Shown: one piece after another, positions 16,230 through 26,888 of the stretch | Layout: each line of letters opens with the position of its first letter | Numbering within the stretch: position 1 is the first letter of the stretch | Assembly (NCBI RefSeq): GCF_964355755.1 | Contig: NC_092673.1 | Location: 2,733,001-2,797,000 of the forward strand | Source of the DNA: Antedon mediterranea | Lineage: Eukaryota > Echinodermata > Crinoidea > Comatulida > Antedonidae | Reading direction: 5' to 3' | Length of the DNA stretch: 64,000 nucleotides | The notes under the pieces: generated by a model | Databases searched by the model: none | The model's input: only the letters and a program-made list of their open reading frames with translations | Told to the model about the DNA's origin: nothing | Translations under genes and position numbers: made by a program

Positions 16230-19200
16230 ATGGCTTCAGCAGCGATACGTTCAGATGAAATGGTTAAAGACTACTTAATTTTTCGGGGCCTAACAAACAC
16301 ATTAAGAACGTTTGAAGCAGAATTAAAAGTGGATAAAGATAAGGGTTTCCGAGTATGTGTATAGTATGGTGATATTTTATTTCTGACCTAGCTAGGCTAT
16401 CTCTACCTCATCTAGGCTAGGCGTCTCGAGTCTAGGAGATAGCTAATACAGGGCCACCAGGCGCTCAGAGATACCCGCGTGTAGGGGAAGTACCCTACTA
16501 TAGCTAGGACCTAGGCATAGTGTATGCAAGATAAGCCCTGGCACGCTAGGCTAGCTAGTTTATTAGTATTTTTATATTTTTGTCTATGTTTGATGTTTAT
16601 TCGTATTTTTATAAGATCTTGTATTTTTGTATTTATGACTTTTTATATGTATATTTATACGCCGTGGCTAAAGATACGGTACCGTATTCTAACTTCTGTT
16701 TACTAAAGGTACGGTAAAATTGCATTACGTCATAACCAGCCAATGGGGTGCTGGTACATGTGTGACGTCATCGTATAAGACTTAGGATTTTTTTCATATC
16801 GCGAAAACAGTGATCAACCGCATTTTCTTTATGCTTCATTTATCGCCGTCGTGTGTGACAAAAACTAAATGTAGCCTACGTCTGTTATTATTATTATTAT
16901 TGAAAAGCCAAAACATGTCGGATTTTAATTCTAGAATACAAAAAACCGTTTGAAAAGAGGCCTAGGCCTACGTACCATAACCTCATTATGAGTTTGTTTG
17001 TGTAGGGAAAGCGATGCCAGGCTGGGGCCAGCCGCGTGTGTGCGCTGATTTCTGTGACTCAGACCTGGGGCTACTGTCTAAAAATCATAGTATTTGAGGA
17101 CCCCTTTATTGTCCGCATTTGCTTGTTGTTTATGGTCACCATTGTAAACAAAGTTTAATAAAAAATATAGGCATAAAGGCCATTTGGAATAAAAATAAAA
17201 CCCTCATCAGCGCACACATCCATGCAGCCTGGCGCCGCCGACAGGAATTCTCTACATACAACACAACAGACGCGATATGAAAAAGAATAGTCCTTATACG
17301 ATGACGTCACACACGTACCAGCACCCCATTGGCTGATTATGACGTAATGCAATTTTACCGTACCTTTAGTAAACAGAAGTTAGAATACGGTACCGTATCT
17401 TTAGCCACAGCGATATTTATAATTAATTGTTGAGAGCTTGTCAACGAAACAAAATTTCCTTTCGGGCCAATAAATTTCTGTATTCTGTATTAATATATTA
17501 ATTAATTATTTTCTAATAATAAGTAAGACCTAGGCCTATTAAATGGAGGTATTATACCTCCATGTTATCAGTATCAACATGATTGACTACGCGCACGCGT
17601 GCCGTAATATTTAGTAAATTAAAAGGTAGAGTTTCTCGGCAGCAGAGTATATTACTGTTTTATGGACCTGGTCTTACCACCTGATAAAAAGTAAAATGAT
17701 ACATAATATTATTATTTATCTTCATATATGATTATGATCTGAATGAATGAATTTACCCAAAATGTGTTTGCAGAACAGCAATTTAACAGCATTTAGATCA
17801 TGGTGGTATAAAATTAGATACCTCCATGTTTGGACAACAATCTATTGAAATATGACTTTTACTTTTTTTTAAAATCAGAGTAACCGGATAGTAGATCAAC
17901 TTTTTACCTTCATCAACATGTATGACTTGATGGGCTTACGCAGCTATTGGGATCACCTGGATAGGAGGTTGTTCAGTCGATTAGAATCCACCTACAGTTC
18001 TAATGTCAAACGTCTTCAAATTAGTGTCCTGAGGTTTGTGAATTAAATTTTGTACTAGCATTAGTACCCATCTTCGACGAATGGGAGCTGATTAAAAGAT
18101 TTCAACCGAGAAAACTAAAATTATAAGTAAAAAGAGTTGCAATTGAAATCTCATTTTCTATTTTAAAATCCATTGATACACATAGGATTGAAATAAAGTT
18201 TAACATAACATTATGTCTGGTACACTTATTATAAGTAGGCTCTATGCAATTTTACACTGTCTGTAAAATGCATTTTAACCAAATCTAAATACAGAACATT
18301 TTACACTATATTTTATATACACTTGCAAGTTTTAGGTACCGTCCATAATCTGAAGTTTGAAATGCAAGTTCACCGTTATTATTTTTGTATTGTGTAAACA
18401 TTAATAATGTATAAACATACAGGCCTACAAGCCTGAAAGGACAGATAAAGAGTTGAACCAGAACAAACACTTTCCAAAGTACCAACATTAAATACAGTAT
18501 TGCACCCTAAAAAGCACAGTGTACATCATCTAAAAATAGATGAAATATTGATGGCTGTAGCTACCGTTAAATGCATGCATAAATATTGTCAAAGCCAGAG
18601 ATACTGTACGATCAAAAGAGTGTTAAAATCCTCTATCTTTGGCAAGTCAAGATCAGTCTCCTAATGTTTATCTAAAGCTCTGTCTACACTATCAAACCAG
18701 TTTGACAAAAAAAAGTATGATGTGCCCAAATATGGTAGTGATATGCCCAAATATGGTGGCAATATGACATCATGTCTATATATATGGGCACATCACATTT
18801 TTTTGTCACATAAAGTTTGATACAGGTAGACAGAGCTTAATAGTATTTATTTTATTTAATCTCAGGTTATATTTAGTGAATGCTATACAGAACAGTAAGC
18901 AAGACAAAGTACTAGAATTTTTTGATAAATTGTCAAATGAACTACAAAATGCAATAGAATGGAAAGAATGGTTCAGTAAGTATTTTAAGATAAATTTGAT
19001 GAGAAATGGTTGAATTACAAATTATTAATATCTGTTGTATCATCATCATCTTATCAGCAACATTGTAAACATTACCTTCCCATAAACATTAATAAGCATT
19101 ATCAATATCATCATTAACATTACATTTATTATCAACAATATCACCACAGCACCTTTGTTGTACAATTAACTGCAATGTTAAAGATGTATTGTCCCCTTGA

Positions 19201-22200
19201 AATATATTTGTTTTTCACATTTTTGTTGTTGAATATGCCATTTTAATGTTCCATAATAGTTATTCACTTTGACCAAAAATTGGATGGGAAAAAACAATTA
19301 TTTACCTGAAAAATTTTTTTATTTAAAAGCAAAAAATAGTCATATTGGCTGCCAGTTAATTTTGGTTGAATTTAATGGTTTATTTGGTCATTTTATAAGT
19401 GGAAACATTTTTTCCTCGTTTTTTCCCTAAAAAATGGCCTATTAAATATCTGATTTTATTTATCTTCATTTTTCATGTTTTTGAGTGACAATACATTTTT
19501 AAATGAATATACTTTTCTTAATTGTTCCTTCAGTATTGCCATTTTTAAAGAACCCTGAACAACAACCATCGTTTGAACTCTACTTTTCCAAACAGTGGCA
19601 AGAAACGCTAACCATCTCACTACAAAACTTTCTGAGTGTTATATTTCAATCTATGCATATCCTTTGATAAACTAGTTATTTTGATTACACACGACACCAA
19701 ACGTTCAATACGGTACTGTAGTACCAAAAAATAATGTTATGTGCTCAAATATGGTAGTGATATTCCCAAATATGGTAGTGATATGACATCATCATGTCCA
19801 TATATGGGCACATCACATTTTTTTTGTCATATAACATTTGATAGTGTTGACAGAGCTTTATACATAGTTATCAAGTTCTTTAACATTTCATACCTCTTCC
19901 TACCCTGTTGAACTATGACCTAGAACAACAAAGGATGATAAAACTTCAAGAAGAAAACAGCAGACTAAGGAATCAGGTATGTGTGTTTTAAATTACAGTG
20001 TGTTATTTTGTTGTTGTGGTTGGAGAGTGTTATTGTTATTGTTATTTGGCTTGGGCCTGGAACACGATGTGTTTGAGATTAGTGCTGAAATGGAAAGCCA
20101 AATGTTTTTTCTTTCTTCAGCTTGCACAGAAAGAAAGAGAAATAATGCTATTACCATCTGCCGCCACAGCGAGTTCAACAGATGAAGCTACAGACGATTT
20201 TACCAACTTTAAAAGGTTTTTTTGATTTTTCATTTAAATATATTTTTCTAACGACAGTCATTTTAGTATTTATTTATAGATAGTCAAACTTATTTGATAA
20301 TGGTTGTGGTGTCCATTTCAATAGTTTCATGATTTACCTTCCCAGTACTTTTTACATATTGGTACATCTATATTAGTCTAGTCAAGGCATTCTAACAACA
20401 GGATGCTGAGCTCCGGAGATCAAAAGGTTTATCTGTGGCTGTGACAGGATCAGTTTCATGCCCCCACACAAAATATGTACATAGTACAGTACTGTGGTAT
20501 TTGTCGCAGCCAGACATAAGATCAAAGGACTGTTACGAGTTCCTATCTCAAGCTCAGTGTCCTGTTGTTAGATTGCCATTGTTTAGTTGTGTTATATTTC
20601 CATTATTTTTATGTCTTAAGCAGTAAATATAAGAAGTCATCGTCACCTCAGCTCGTTTGTAAACCTCCAACAACGACACAAGCAAACGCAGCCAAATCTC
20701 TACCTTCATCAATAATAAAATCAAGTGCAAAACAGACACCAGTCAAAAAAGAGGAGGATAACAATCTATTAAAGAATAAGAAAGTTGAGGGAGGGTCACA
20801 AGTCAGCAGAGAAATACCTACAGCTAGACAACAATCAAGTCAGGTATTTATTTTAAGTTCATTCCATTTCATCCATGTCTTTATTGGTAATTTGCCTTTT
20901 TTTAAGTATTTCTAAATTAAAGTTAGGTAACAGTAAATCGGAGAAGAATAATCTGTATGACAAAATGTTTTGGCACCAGATTCTAACTTACGGCCTCACA
21001 AATTGAGTATACAGCAGAGTCTATTTGTGCCTAGCTTACCTGGATAAACAGACAATAGCCCTTTTTCCTTAAAGAGCGAGATATAACTCGAAAAGTAGAA
21101 ATATTCATGAACACCTCTCTCCCAAATGGTATAGTCCATGACCTATGCCCTCATGTGAGAGCCTACCCACAAACCACCATCATCATTTCTTTTTGAGACA
21201 TACATACATTTTTTAATTTTCAGTTTACCTCAAATTCGTCAACAAAAGAAAAACATGTTCAGCAAAAACAAGTGTATCAGAAACAAAGGCAACAGTTGCT
21301 TTCAAAAGCACCAGAAACACTAGTTAAAGAGACACTAGAGAACACAAAAATACAAGAGAACACAAAAACACAAGAAAGTGTTAAACATCAGGAAAGTCCT
21401 AAACATCAAGCGAGTACGACAGATACACAGCAGCAGGCAGCAACAGAAACTAAAGTTGCTGCTATTAATATCTCCCAAGGTAAGCTGTTATTTTAGAATG
21501 AATGTCATCTTTTCTCCGTATGAGAATGTCATAGAAAATCATCAGTTTTTTTGCAAGTTGCATTTGTTTTTAACAAATGTTTGTCTGCATTTTGTATTTA
21601 CCAATGACCAGAATAGTTTCCCATTGTGATAACAAAATTGATTTTTCTTGAATTTGAAATTTTGAATTTTAAACTGTTGCCAACTCACAAATATGAGTGT
21701 TTGCAATAAGAGGCTAATCTTGGATCTGAGCCCCAACAACCTTTCCAAAGTGCATACCATCTTACTGTAGTTTATGGAACTAATTGGAGTAAAAAAATTA
21801 ATGAAATTTTTCCTTTTTTCCCCATAGAAACTGAAATTGATAAAGGACATGCATCAACAGATGGTGGAGGAGGCAAGTAAAATGTTGAATTATTTTTGTA
21901 CAAATGAGTTGGTAAAGCGTTTGTAAAAAGAAAAAAAAACCAACCCAGTAATAACTTATCAAACAACATTAAGGTGCCCTTATGTCGACGTGGAACCCAA
22001 CTCAACTGTGTTGACATAAGTGCTCAACTTAATGCAACTGACCACAAATGACAGGCACACAAAAAATGTTGACATAAGCTTAGTTACTTTCATGCCCCTG
22101 TTTTATTTTTTTTCCAGGAATTGAAAGGAACTGAAAACTTTGAATTGAGTCACGCGTGTGGTACGGGTCACCGCGGACCAGTAGGGATCAGTTTGATATT

Positions 22201-25200
22201 ACTGTAGCGCTTGCGCATACTGGTTCCTTCACAACTATGAATCGCGTCGTGCGCACCGTAAGGTAGCAACGACTAGTTCCAGTGCTGACATAAGCACTCG
22301 CACACTGGTTCCTTTCAGTTCCGTTCAGTTGATCAAAATGTCAACATAAGCACTCTTGCGCAACTAGTTACTTTGAGTTGAGTTCCATGTCGACATAAGG
22401 GCCCCATTAGTTTCTAATAATATGAAGTGCTTATAATGTGATTGTTGTCTTGTTTCTTAGTTCCAGCATATAGCAATGAACAACCATTCCTAGTACTTAG
22501 TCAAGATGAGTATATTGAACACCACTCAGCTATTACTACCTGCAAGTTTTCCTCATCCGTTTCAATGGTAGCAAGTGCTGATATTGATGGTGTAGTCAAG
22601 TAAGTATGGACCAATTGAATTGAAAACACAGGGAACAAACTACCCATATATTAAAAATACACAATGTATAGACTACATTATATTACTAAAGCTCTGTCTA
22701 CACTATCAAACAGGTTTGACAAGTGTGATGTACCCAAGTATGGTAGTGATATGCCCAAATATGGTAGTGATATGACATCATGTTCATATATGGGTACATC
22801 ACATTTTTTGTCACAGTGTAGACAAGGCTTTAGATGTCCTCTAATTGGAGCCACTGAAGTATTCCTAAAATGTCAGCTCCTTGTCAAAATCAATTTATAG
22901 ACTGTATCTTGTTTTAAAAAATTTCATTTTTAACTTTCATGTGATGAACGATTATAACATCTTATCATGATAATGAATTTGTAACCCTGTTATATCTGCA
23001 AATTACACAAGCAATAACAATTTCTTAATCTTGTTGATATAAAGTTTGCAGCACACCATGTATATATAGTTTTGAAAAGAACTGTTGAGAGAGAAACTCA
23101 ACAGTTCTTTTCAGAAATACGTGGTGTACTGCAAACTTTATATCAGCATTTGATTTTGCTATGCAAACCTTCAAACAATATATTTCTTAATCTTCTTTAA
23201 AATATTTATTTGGTCACCAATGAATAATAACCAGAAGTGAGAACCCCAAATGACCGCTTTATGATACGTGAATTGTTTTATCTTGCAGAGTTTGGCGTTT
23301 TTCGCCCTCTCCTGCTACTGTGGCAACAATCATGTCTAAAAGTCCATTACTATCATTAGAATGGGCTTCAAAAACAGATAGACTTGTAAATATGCCTTAG
23401 TATATTTCATTTCTTTTATATCAAACTGTTTTTATGTATTCATTATTTAAAGATGCCATTGTGAATCGTTTTAGGTTTATTCTTTCCCAATTTATCTGTT
23501 ATTAGTTGTTACTGGGAAGTTGTAGTGGTGCTGTTAAACTATTTGACACAACATCTAAGCGGACATTGTGTGAGGCTGAGACTGATCCACTATATCCAAG
23601 GTATTTATGCCCATTTGGCATTTCATACCTTGTCATATTATATAATATAGTTAATAAACTATTTTCCAGCATGTTCTTAGTTCCAATTGGACATTGTATG
23701 TGGCCGAGACTGATCCACTATATCCAAGGTATTTATGCCTATTTGGCATTTCATCATAATACAGAATTATATAATATATAGTTAATAAACTATTTTCCAT
23801 GTTCTTTGCAGGATACAGTCACTAACATGTAGCCCGAATGATAGTGCGTTTGTTTGTTCAGCTTCTCGGAATCCTAATGATGTTATGTCTCCTGATATTT
23901 CATCTTACCCTGAGAGCAAGCTGATGGTGTGGGACATGAAATTAATGAAATTACAGGTAACGTGATGTTAATGACCTTGACTGATGAACATCCCCCCCCC
24001 CCCCCCCACCCAAAGAGAGGATTCCTGGGTTTTCCTCTTGAAAAACACAATTCTAGGAATTACAATGATTGTAAATCATGTAACATCTAAGTAGATCCTT
24101 GTCATTTGATTGGAGGATTATGGGTCACATGATACTTAATAGATACTCCATTGAATATTCCAGTGAATCTTTATTTCGTACTGTCAAATTTTGTTTTCAT
24201 GTAGAAAGAGCTCCCTCTGTTGGCTAATTCTGGCTGCATCAATTGTTGTTCGTATAACCATAATGGTCATCTGTTAATTACTGGCTTTTCAGATGGAAAG
24301 ATCAGAATATTTGGTGAGCATTTTATTTAACCTTTATTTTAAACCTTTTATTTAAAGTTTACATAATTAACAGGTAACTTAAAGATGTATTGTCCCTTGA
24401 AACACAAAAAAATGAAGGTCAAAATATTCTAAATTTAAAGTGGCCATATCAAAGTAATATTAAAGTTATTCACTTTAAGTCGAAAATTCGAGCCAAAAAC
24501 AACAAGTTTACGTAATTAACAGGTAAATTAGTTTAATTACATTTCATCTGGAAAATCGTCACGAGCAAAAGTAAACAAAGATTTCAAACCATGAGTACGC
24601 ATTATGCATATGCTAAATTAGGATTGTTTACAACTCGTCACGGTTAAGAAGGTATTTTCACACAGATCATGAGGAAGTTTTATGATTATGCATACAGAGT
24701 AGCCAAACAAGTGCGTTTCATTATGGGATATGTTTTGATTGAAAACTTTGACTGGAAGTCAAAGTTATTTTTTTAACAAAAAAACGTCTGTATTTCAGTT
24801 AAATTTTTTTTTTTTCGAAAAAGTTTTGGTGATAGTTAATAACTATTATGATACTTCAAAATGACCCACCTTTTTTCGAAATCTTTTATTTTTTATTTTT
24901 TTGGAATTAGTCAAAGGGACAATACATCTTTAATTTGATTACATTTCATCTGGAAAATCGTCCCGAGCGGAAGTAAACAAAGATTTCAAACCACGAGTAT
25001 GCATTATGCATGATGCTAATTAGGATTGTTTACAACTCGTCACAGTTGAGAAGGTGGTGTTTTCACACAGATCGCGAGAAAGTTTGTGATTATGCATACA
25101 GAGTAGCCAAACAAGCATGTTGCATATGAGATACGTTTTTGATCGAAAACTTTGACTGGAAGTAAAAAAAAACAAAAAAAACGTCTGTATATTAGTTAAA

Positions 25201-26335
25201 TGATTTGTTTTTTTACTAATTGTTGGTGAAAGTTAAAAACTATTATGATACTTCAAAATGACCCACTTTTTTTCGAAATATTTTTGTTAAATTGTTTTGG
25301 AATTAGTCAAAGGGACAATACATCTTTAATATTTCATGCATTGATATGATGACACAGTTCTATACAGAACATATTCCATAATAACTCCCGTATTAATTAC
25401 AGTATTGTATCTATATGTTTCATGGAACGTGTAATATTTTTATTTAGATATGCAGCGGTATGAAAGTCTTTTAAGCTGGAAAGCCCACAGTGGTCAGGTA
25501 TTCTCTGCACAATTTAGTCCGGATGAGAACTCTGTGTACAGCATGGGGGAAGATGGCAAAGTAAGATTAGTATCTTATCAATTAAAAAACAAGTTTGACA
25601 AAGAAAATGTGATGTGCCCAAATATGGTAGTGGTATGCCTAAATATGGTAGTGATATGACATCATCATGTCCATATATGGGCACATCACAGAGCTGAACA
25701 GTACTGTAATTATAAGAAAGAGAAAGATGTACGTTGATATATTTCTCCTTCTAATTTTGTTTAAACTGAAATTAATAATTTTACTAATTTACAGTTTTGT
25801 CAATGGAGTATCCAGCAGGTTGGTCAAAAGATAAACGAATTACCAATACACAATGGTGCAACAGGCCCCTTTGTAGTGTCTGGATATGGAGGCTACAAAC
25901 AGGAGCAAATTCCTTGTGGGAAGTTGTTTGCGTTTGACCCCAGTGGAGGTCATGTGATGACATGTGCAATGAATGGATCTCTAGTATACAAGGTAGGTAT
26001 TATTAATACTTTGATAAAGTAATTAATATAAAGAATATCTTTATCATCACATTTTATGAGAAACATAGAAAGAAAATATAAGTAATATATATAGTAATAT
26101 TAGAGATTAATTCAATTAAGATTGTGTATTTATTGGTGAGATTGTTGATTATTTTTTTTAATGTTTTATTTATCATTTATAGGTTGATGATGATAGGTTT
26201 GAATCTACTCTTACAATCCTAGGCCACAAGACGCCAGTAGTGAGTGTAGACTGGGGTAGTACGATGAACACTGGCATGTGCTTAACAGGGTCAATGGATG
26301 GACGTTTAAGGGTCACTATGCTATTAACCCACTAG
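16230..26335 (+). CDS. WDR91: WD repeat-containing protein 91, complete (17 exons)
   Basis: Exons: 16230-16352, 17879-18033, 18866-18975, 19534-19656, 19894-19976, 20121-20215, 20624-20843, 21224-21479, 21828-21872, 22461-22599, 23289-23385, 23506-23600, 23812-23956, 24205-24313, 25448-25560, 25795-25992 and 26183-26335. They total 2,259 bp, 752 aa, close to the vertebrate length. The N-terminus ([19 protein letters not shown]) is the LisH-like/helical region. About 170-230 is coiled coil, then a Gln/Lys/Ser-rich linker, and from about 410 a WD40 propeller ([20 protein letters not shown] near the end). In animals WDR91 is a Rab7 effector that, with WDR81, lowers endosomal PI3P and drives early-to-late endosome conversion. 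Intron 4 is a U12-type AT-AC intron and intron 9 a GC-AG intron; GT-AG choices give stops. The last exon is followed by tandem copies of itself. Introns carry many MITEs. Confidence 0.95.
16654..17418. mobile_element. Long inverted-repeat element in WDR91 intron 1
   Basis: The left arm (about 16,654-16,785) and right arm (about 17,288-17,418) are near-perfect inverted repeats, with TGGCTAAAGATACGGTACCG and ATTGCATTACGTCATAA as landmarks. Further inside, 17,005-17,046 pairs with 17,205-17,245. No transposase frame, so a non-autonomous foldback/MITE. Confidence 0.85.
18672..18840. repeat. F1 MITE copy (WDR91 intron 2)
   Basis: Complete, with both terminal repeats and the tandem CCAAATATGGTAGTGATATG core. 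Confidence 0.85.
19178..19507. repeat. F4-family inverted-repeat element (WDR91 intron 3)
   Basis: Ends AAAGATGTATTGTCCCC and GTGACAATACATTTTTA are inverted repeats shared with the element at 24,379. Confidence 0.7.
19657..19893 (+). other. WDR91: U12-type AT-AC intron (WDR91 intron 4)
   Basis: The donor reads ATATCCTTT right after exon 4 and the 3' end has TTCTTTAAC, a close match to the U12 branch site, about 10 nt before a terminal AC. Splicing there gives the continuous reading [17 protein letters not shown], which fits WDR91. No GT-AG pair restores the frame, because exon 4 runs into TGA and the exon 5 frame has an upstream TAA. The F1 MITE at about 19,735 lies inside it. Confidence 0.92.
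19735..19861. repeat. F1 MITE copy (inside WDR91 U12 intron)
   Basis: Core and right terminus are clear; the left terminus is lost. Confidence 0.75.
20383..20579. repeat. F5-family inverted-repeat element (WDR91 intron 6)
   Basis: Ends CAAGGCATTCTAACAACAGG and CCTGTTGTTAGATTGCC. Related copies are in intron 1 of genes C (28,021) and D (43,467). Confidence 0.75.
21873..22460 (+). other. WDR91: GC-AG intron (WDR91 intron 9)
   Basis: Exon 9 ends GGAGGAG and is followed by GCAAGT, otherwise an ideal donor. The only nearby GT donor (GTAAAATG, 4 nt on) would put TAG into the next exon within five codons. The GC site gives [20 protein letters not shown], the conserved entry to the WD40 domain. Confidence 0.9.
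21971..22408. mobile_element. Inverted-repeat element in WDR91 intron 9
   Basis: Left end GCCCTTATGTCGACGTGGAA and right end TTCCATGTCGACATAAGGGC are inverted repeats flanking about 400 bp with further internal symmetry. No coding potential. Confidence 0.85.
22686..22833. repeat. F1 MITE copy (WDR91 intron 10)
   Basis: Both terminal repeats recognisable; right end slightly decayed (GTGTAGACAAGGCTTTA). Confidence 0.85.
23033..23151. repeat. Near-perfect hairpin element (WDR91 intron 10)
   Basis: Arms of about 55 bp (GATATAAAGTTTGCAGCACA against its reverse complement at the right end) meet at GAGAGAGAAACTC. A half copy lies at 9,817-9,880. Confidence 0.85.
23670..23728 (+). pseudogene. Duplicated fragment of WDR91 exon 12 inside intron 12 (pseudo-exon)
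   Basis: The 3' half of exon 12 with its GTATTT donor and about 65 bp of intron is repeated at a period of about 121 bp. The copy also has an acceptor-like TTTTCCAG before it, so a 59-bp exon could form. Since 59 is not a multiple of 3, inclusion would shift the frame. Confidence 0.7.
24379..25333. mobile_element. F4 element with a 400-bp internal tandem duplication (WDR91 intron 14)
   Basis: The first copy (24,379-24,933) has ends TTAAAGATGTATTGTCCC and GGGACAATACATCTTTAA. Its right part (from 24,534) is repeated at 24,934-25,333 with the same right end. No coding potential. Confidence 0.85.
25589..25694. repeat. Truncated F1 MITE (WDR91 intron 15)
   Basis: Retains the core (GATGTGCCCAAATATGGTAG) and a short right end; begins 28 bp after the exon 15 donor. 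Confidence 0.75.
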
Positions 26336-26796
26336 AATCCCTGTAGGCCACAAGACGCCAGTAGTGAGTGTAGACTGGGGTAGTACGATGAACACTGGCA
26401 TGTGCTTAACAGGGTCAATGGATGGACGTTTAAGGGTCACTATGCTATTAACCCACTAGAATCCCTGTAGGCCACAAGACGCCAGTAGTGAGTGTAGACT
26501 GGGGTAGTACGATGAACACTGGCATGTGTTTAACAGGGTCAATGGATGGACGTTTAAGGGTCACTATGCTATTAACCCACTAGAATCCCTGTAGGTCACA
26601 AGAAGCCAGTAGTGAGTGTAGACTGGGGTAGTACGATGAACACTGGCATGTGCTTAACAGGGTCAATGGATGGACGTTTAAGGGTCACTATGCTATTAAC
26701 CCACTAGAATCCCTGTAGGTCACAAGACGCCAGTAGTGAGTGTAGACTGGGGTAGTACGATGAACACTGGCATGTGCTTAACAGGGTCAATGGATG
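26220..26796 (+). repeat. 124-bp tandem amplification of the WDR91 terminal exon
   Basis: AGGCCACAAG landmarks are at 26,221, 26,345, 26,469, 26,593 and 26,717, an exact 124-bp period over about 4.6 copies. The first copy is the functional end of exon 17 with its TAG. The extra copies carry the same coding end and stop but lie in the 3' UTR. Copies are nearly identical, so they are recent or homogenised. One more piece of the array is at 38,280-38,395. Confidence 0.95.
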
Positions 26797-26888
26797 GAAT
26801 TGTACATCGGAGTTTAGGCGTTTAAAAAACATGGCTCTCACTTTCCATAGAATACTGTACATATTCTCTCCCCTATCTCATTCTTAAT

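Follow-up and report, generated by a model that had tools for sequence, protein, structure and literature searches.

How can the fourth intron of WDR91 in Antedon mediterranea be removed, when its terminal dinucleotides are AT and AC? A sequence-only reading of this locus, which lies in a 64 kb window (the whole stretch of DNA that was analysed), had proposed a U12-type AT-AC intron at 19657-19893. The present analysis supports this assignment: with a probability of about 0.96, the AT-AC intron 4 of this gene is U12-dependent and would be excised as such in the species itself. The evidence comes from the splice signals and the reading frame, from a comparison of all competing splice choices and from the spliceosomal genes of the same genome.

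The WDR91 gene around intron 4

Judged by its predicted protein, the gene at 16230..26335 is WDR91 (Table 1). The 17 joined exons yield 752 residues and one terminal stop only. The WD40 half (residues 408-752) is of the WDR91 type and matches WDR91 chains in the PDB with E = 7e-121. The N-terminal half carries a LisH/CTLH region, in which the CTLH_Armc9 model (PF23138) is found at 1.2e-19 and a LisH motif is weak (22.4 bits, below cut-off). Around intron 4, the 15 other introns are of the GT-AG or GC-AG type and leave the frame intact.

The Pfam CTLH model stops just short of the exon 4/5 junction. The N-terminal half of WDR91 is absent from the PDB, which holds no deposited sequence spanning this junction. 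In an alignment with a provisional human WDR91 sequence, residues 1-206 run through it without a gap. Splicing 19656 to 19894 in silico gives the conserved 13-residue joined reading that had been proposed across exons 4 and 5; in the alignment with the provisional human sequence it is set against FQCMPVPVILNFD.

Table 1. Coordinates of the WDR91 features in the window and of the ARMC9 intron discussed below
Feature	Position	Strand	Basis
WDR91 coding span, 17 exons, 752 aa, without internal stop	16230..26335	+	spliced translation; PDB match; CTLH domain
Exon 4, ends with the ...FQSM region and the first base of the following codon	19534..19656	+	spliced translation
Predicted intron 4, U12-type AT-AC, 237 nt, phase 1	19657..19893	+	signals and ranking of frame-keeping pairs
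U12-type 5' splice site ATATCCTTT, 9/9 to RTATCCTTT	19657..19665	+	consensus match
Partial copy of a dispersed MITE-like repeat	19726..19860	+	genome-wide similarity search
Branch site TTCTTTAAC, 8/9 to TTCCTTRAY	19876..19884	+	consensus match
Terminal AC, 3' splice site	19892..19893	+	sequence
Exon 5, begins (C)PLPTLLNYD...	19894..19976	+	spliced translation
ARMC9 intron, U12-type GT-AG, 213 nt, phase 0	L013 1714-1926 (G000:C3, about 31,320,830)		

Splice signals and competing splice choices

The donor, a branch-site-like element about 10 nt from the end and the terminal AC had all been named by the sequence-only reading, and each was found in its place, with the exact intron borders and the frame in agreement. 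The intron starts at 19657 with ATATCCTTTGAT and ends with TTCTTTAACATTTCATAC. Its terminal dinucleotides, AT...AC, are one of the two combinations (AT-AC or GT-AG) of U12-type introns, its donor matches RTATCCTTT, and a branch site like TTCCTTRAY lies near the 3' end. TTCTTTAAC offers two candidate branch As, at distances of 10 and 11 nt from the end of the intron.

Such signals are rare in the window. ATATCCTTT occurs a single time in the 64 kb, both strands counted, and among 13,398 AT dinucleotides only one, the donor at 19657, agrees with RTATCCTTT at 9/9 positions. Of 7,376 AC ends, 38 (0.5%) are preceded at 5-15 nt by a sequence that fits the branch-site consensus at 8/9 positions or better. 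Since donor and branch site both sit exactly where the conserved frame needs the splice, chance is no serious explanation. Single-duplex energies of U11, U12 and U6atac with their sites did not separate from shuffles of such short sites and are therefore not counted as evidence. When the genome was scanned with an exact pattern for short U12-type AT-AC introns, 0 matches were obtained compared to 4 in the reversed control; the length band of the pattern was too narrow for this to be informative.

Within the region, every GT-AG, GC-AG, AT-AC, AT-AG or GT-AC pair that is frame-keeping and stop-free was compared, with the provisional human WDR91 sequence serving as reference. On this reference, the pair 19657/19893 obtained the best score, 209, followed by a pair with 196 that uses the same donor and an AC within the branch site. 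The proposal that only this splice gives the conserved reading holds insofar as it is the best-scoring frame-keeping pair, but the accompanying statement that GT-AG borders lead to stops on either side was overstated: the frame stays open with 11 GT-AG and 11 GC-AG pairs. These pairs are the basis of a first alternative, according to which the major spliceosome removes the intron via GT-AG or GC-AG borders, e.g. GT 19636/AG 19923 or GC 19655/AG 19933. However, every one of them deletes conserved residues around the junction, at least 14 in each case, and their acceptors are located in coding sequence without a pyrimidine tract, which makes this alternative very improbable.

Equally improbable is that the AT-AC intron itself is removed as a U2-type intron, by the major spliceosome. 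Such AT-AC introns exist in small number, with 85 counted in human (PMC8280824), but here the donor agrees with the U12 consensus throughout, and a branch site of the U12 type is found at the close spacing of U12 introns. The least probable alternative, that WDR91 is here a decaying copy or a mis-assembly in which the splice is not needed, could draw on the tandem duplication of the last exon at the 3' end, but this is the sole WDR91 copy that a protein search found in the genome, and its 17 exons give one intact frame. What counts against the preferred reading is that the same search, with the gene being single-copy, revealed no intronless retrocopy in which the joined exons would be seen.

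The preferred U12-dependent AT-AC splice also matters for annotation. If intron 4 is retained, translation ends after 173 residues, so that a gene predictor limited to GT-AG would truncate WDR91, as had been anticipated. Skipping of exon 5 or of exons 4 and 5 ends it early, too, at 191 or 150 residues, respectively.

The minor spliceosome and its introns in the genome

The minor spliceosome is complete at the snRNA level in this genome. Across all 18 contigs (354 Mb), a search with Rfam cut-offs detected genes for U12 (125.7 bits), U4atac (97.6 bits), U6atac (136.6 bits, and a weak second copy with 33.7) and U11 (two genes, 88.6 and 82.9 bits), all above the respective cut-off. The 5' end of U11 and segments of U12 and U6atac pair with donor and branch site, and in alignments these pairing segments are intact (U11 5' end, AAAAAGGG; U12, GAGUAAGGAA; U6atac, AAAGGAGAG). 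Of the proteins, CENATAC (CCDC84) was found in five pieces with a best E of 1.2e-17 and PDCD7 in two pieces. The expectation that the host retains a minor spliceosome was thus confirmed by four snRNA species and two protein components. Human AT-AN minor introns depend on CENATAC (PMC8280824). The two U11 genes are diverged and located on different chromosomes (L002 1501-1629 and L003 1501-1628).

For the splicing of intron 4 the following course can be proposed, in which signals, frame and machinery genes come from the present analysis and excision and order of events from established knowledge of the intron class. ATATCCTTT would be recognised by U11, and TTCTTTAAC would be paired by U12. At the donor, U11 would then be replaced by U6atac. 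The minor spliceosome would join exon 4 (...FQSM) to exon 5 (PLPTLLNYD...), with cut points C/AT and AC/C in phase 1. CENATAC probably assists, given its preference for AT-AN introns; here, this dependence is derived from what is known of the class.

As a positive control, the intron behind LFPG(T/K)(D/H) was inspected in p38, ERK and JNK of the same genome. All three genes have a U12-type GT-AG intron at this common position. Removal of the p38 intron (GTATCCTTTT...ACAG) in silico gives the reading LFPGTDHIDQL and that of the ERK intron (GTATCCTAC...TTTCCTTAGC...TCAG) LFPGKHYLDQL; the JNK intron (GTATCCTTCT...TTCCTTTAAC...TTAG) joins as GATC/ATATTGATCAATGG. The MAPK family is known for its minor introns (PMC6865273). 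This means, the genome keeps ancient U12 introns besides the machinery, and both the snRNA and protein genes and their substrates are present. The MAPK introns share the class of donor and branch site and the machinery with intron 4 of WDR91, but they end GT-AG instead of AT-AC. The JNK gene contains two similar exon copies for human residues 286-332 (L049 807-938 and 979-1119), which are probably mutually exclusive alternative exons.

A further U12-type intron was found in a gene that we take to be ARMC9, a paralog of WDR91, based on the common CTLH domain and a provisional human sequence. It spans GTATCCTTTGAT...TTTCTTAACATTTTTTCTCAG, with the donor GTATCCTTTGAT (also GTATCCTTT) and the branch site TTTCTTAAC, and is followed by a 16-nt microexon; the joined reading LFEIY/QDVPN/EMSTQLQQLQQ...KRYNYLQ/SDYHNL is in frame. 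The ARMC9 intron is located just behind the CTLH domain. In an alignment that was continued gapless by hand, it lies 26 nt further downstream than the intron of WDR91. In both genes, a U12-type donor and branch site thus appear just after the same domain. In contrast to the AT-AC intron of WDR91 in phase 1, the ARMC9 intron is GT-AG, in phase 0, lies 26 nt further downstream and precedes a microexon. That both descend from one ancestral minor intron, which changed its subtype and moved by 26 nt, is unlikely; if true, it would be a rare case of minor-intron sliding.

Minor introns account for less than 0.5% of all human introns. About 24-26% of the human ones have AT-AC ends (PMC8280824; PMC10639083), and phases follow the order 1 > 2 > 0, phase 1 being commonest in animals (PMC10639083), which the phase of WDR91 intron 4 fits. 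The human AT-AC U12 introns of IPO5 (intron 21) and P120/NOP2 have the ATATCCTTT donor and the AC end in common with it. Like other A-type minor introns, it has a branch site resembling TTCCTTRAY at 10-11 nt from its end and is a single minor intron among major ones. Nothing of substance sets it apart from this class; a partial repeat copy fills over half of the intron. In the texts of open papers, no mention of WDR91 together with a U12 or minor intron was found; a vertebrate WDR91 counterpart of the intron may have been recorded before. In a starfish, minor introns occur at a vertebrate-like density (PMC10639083). As such introns have been documented widely in animals, a starfish included, the WDR91 case leaves the general understanding unchanged: intron 4 belongs to a well-known class, as a sound but unremarkable member. 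Its value is that the WDR91 gene model in this genome is fixed and that a clean AT-AC minor intron is added to a genome with an snRNA-complete minor spliceosome.

Repeats and duplications within WDR91

An inserted MITE had been suggested for intron 4. A repeat copy is indeed present, but it is only partial: its degenerate right end is kept, and the left end, which two of the other copies have in common (at 18672 and 22686), is lost. At least dozens of scored relatives with approximately 90-94% identity exist genome-wide, and three further copies are located in other WDR91 introns (at 18708, 22716 and 25600). About 15 nt separate the repeat from the branch site, and neither splice signal falls within it. 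Introns commonly grow by insertions of this kind.

Several other peculiarities were observed in the gene. Intron 9 (21873-22460) is apparently of the GC-AG type (GGAG/GCAAGTAAA), and its GC donor keeps the frame into the next exon. Together with the AT donor of intron 4, WDR91 thus has two non-GT donors. In intron 1, an inverted repeat (16660-16792/17280-17412) has 133-nt arms that are 93% complementary and 487 nt apart. Exon 12 is partly duplicated, donor included: the segment 23554-23626 recurs 128 bp downstream with 90% identity, and this second copy (23682-23754) looks like a pseudo-exon. One intron contains a tandem duplication of a block of about 400 bp (24528-25330, 83-94% identity). 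The last coding exon is part of an array of five nearly identical head-to-tail copies of 124 bp (26220-26839), the first four of which each contain the stop codon; the array stems either from a tandem duplication of recent date or from the assembly.
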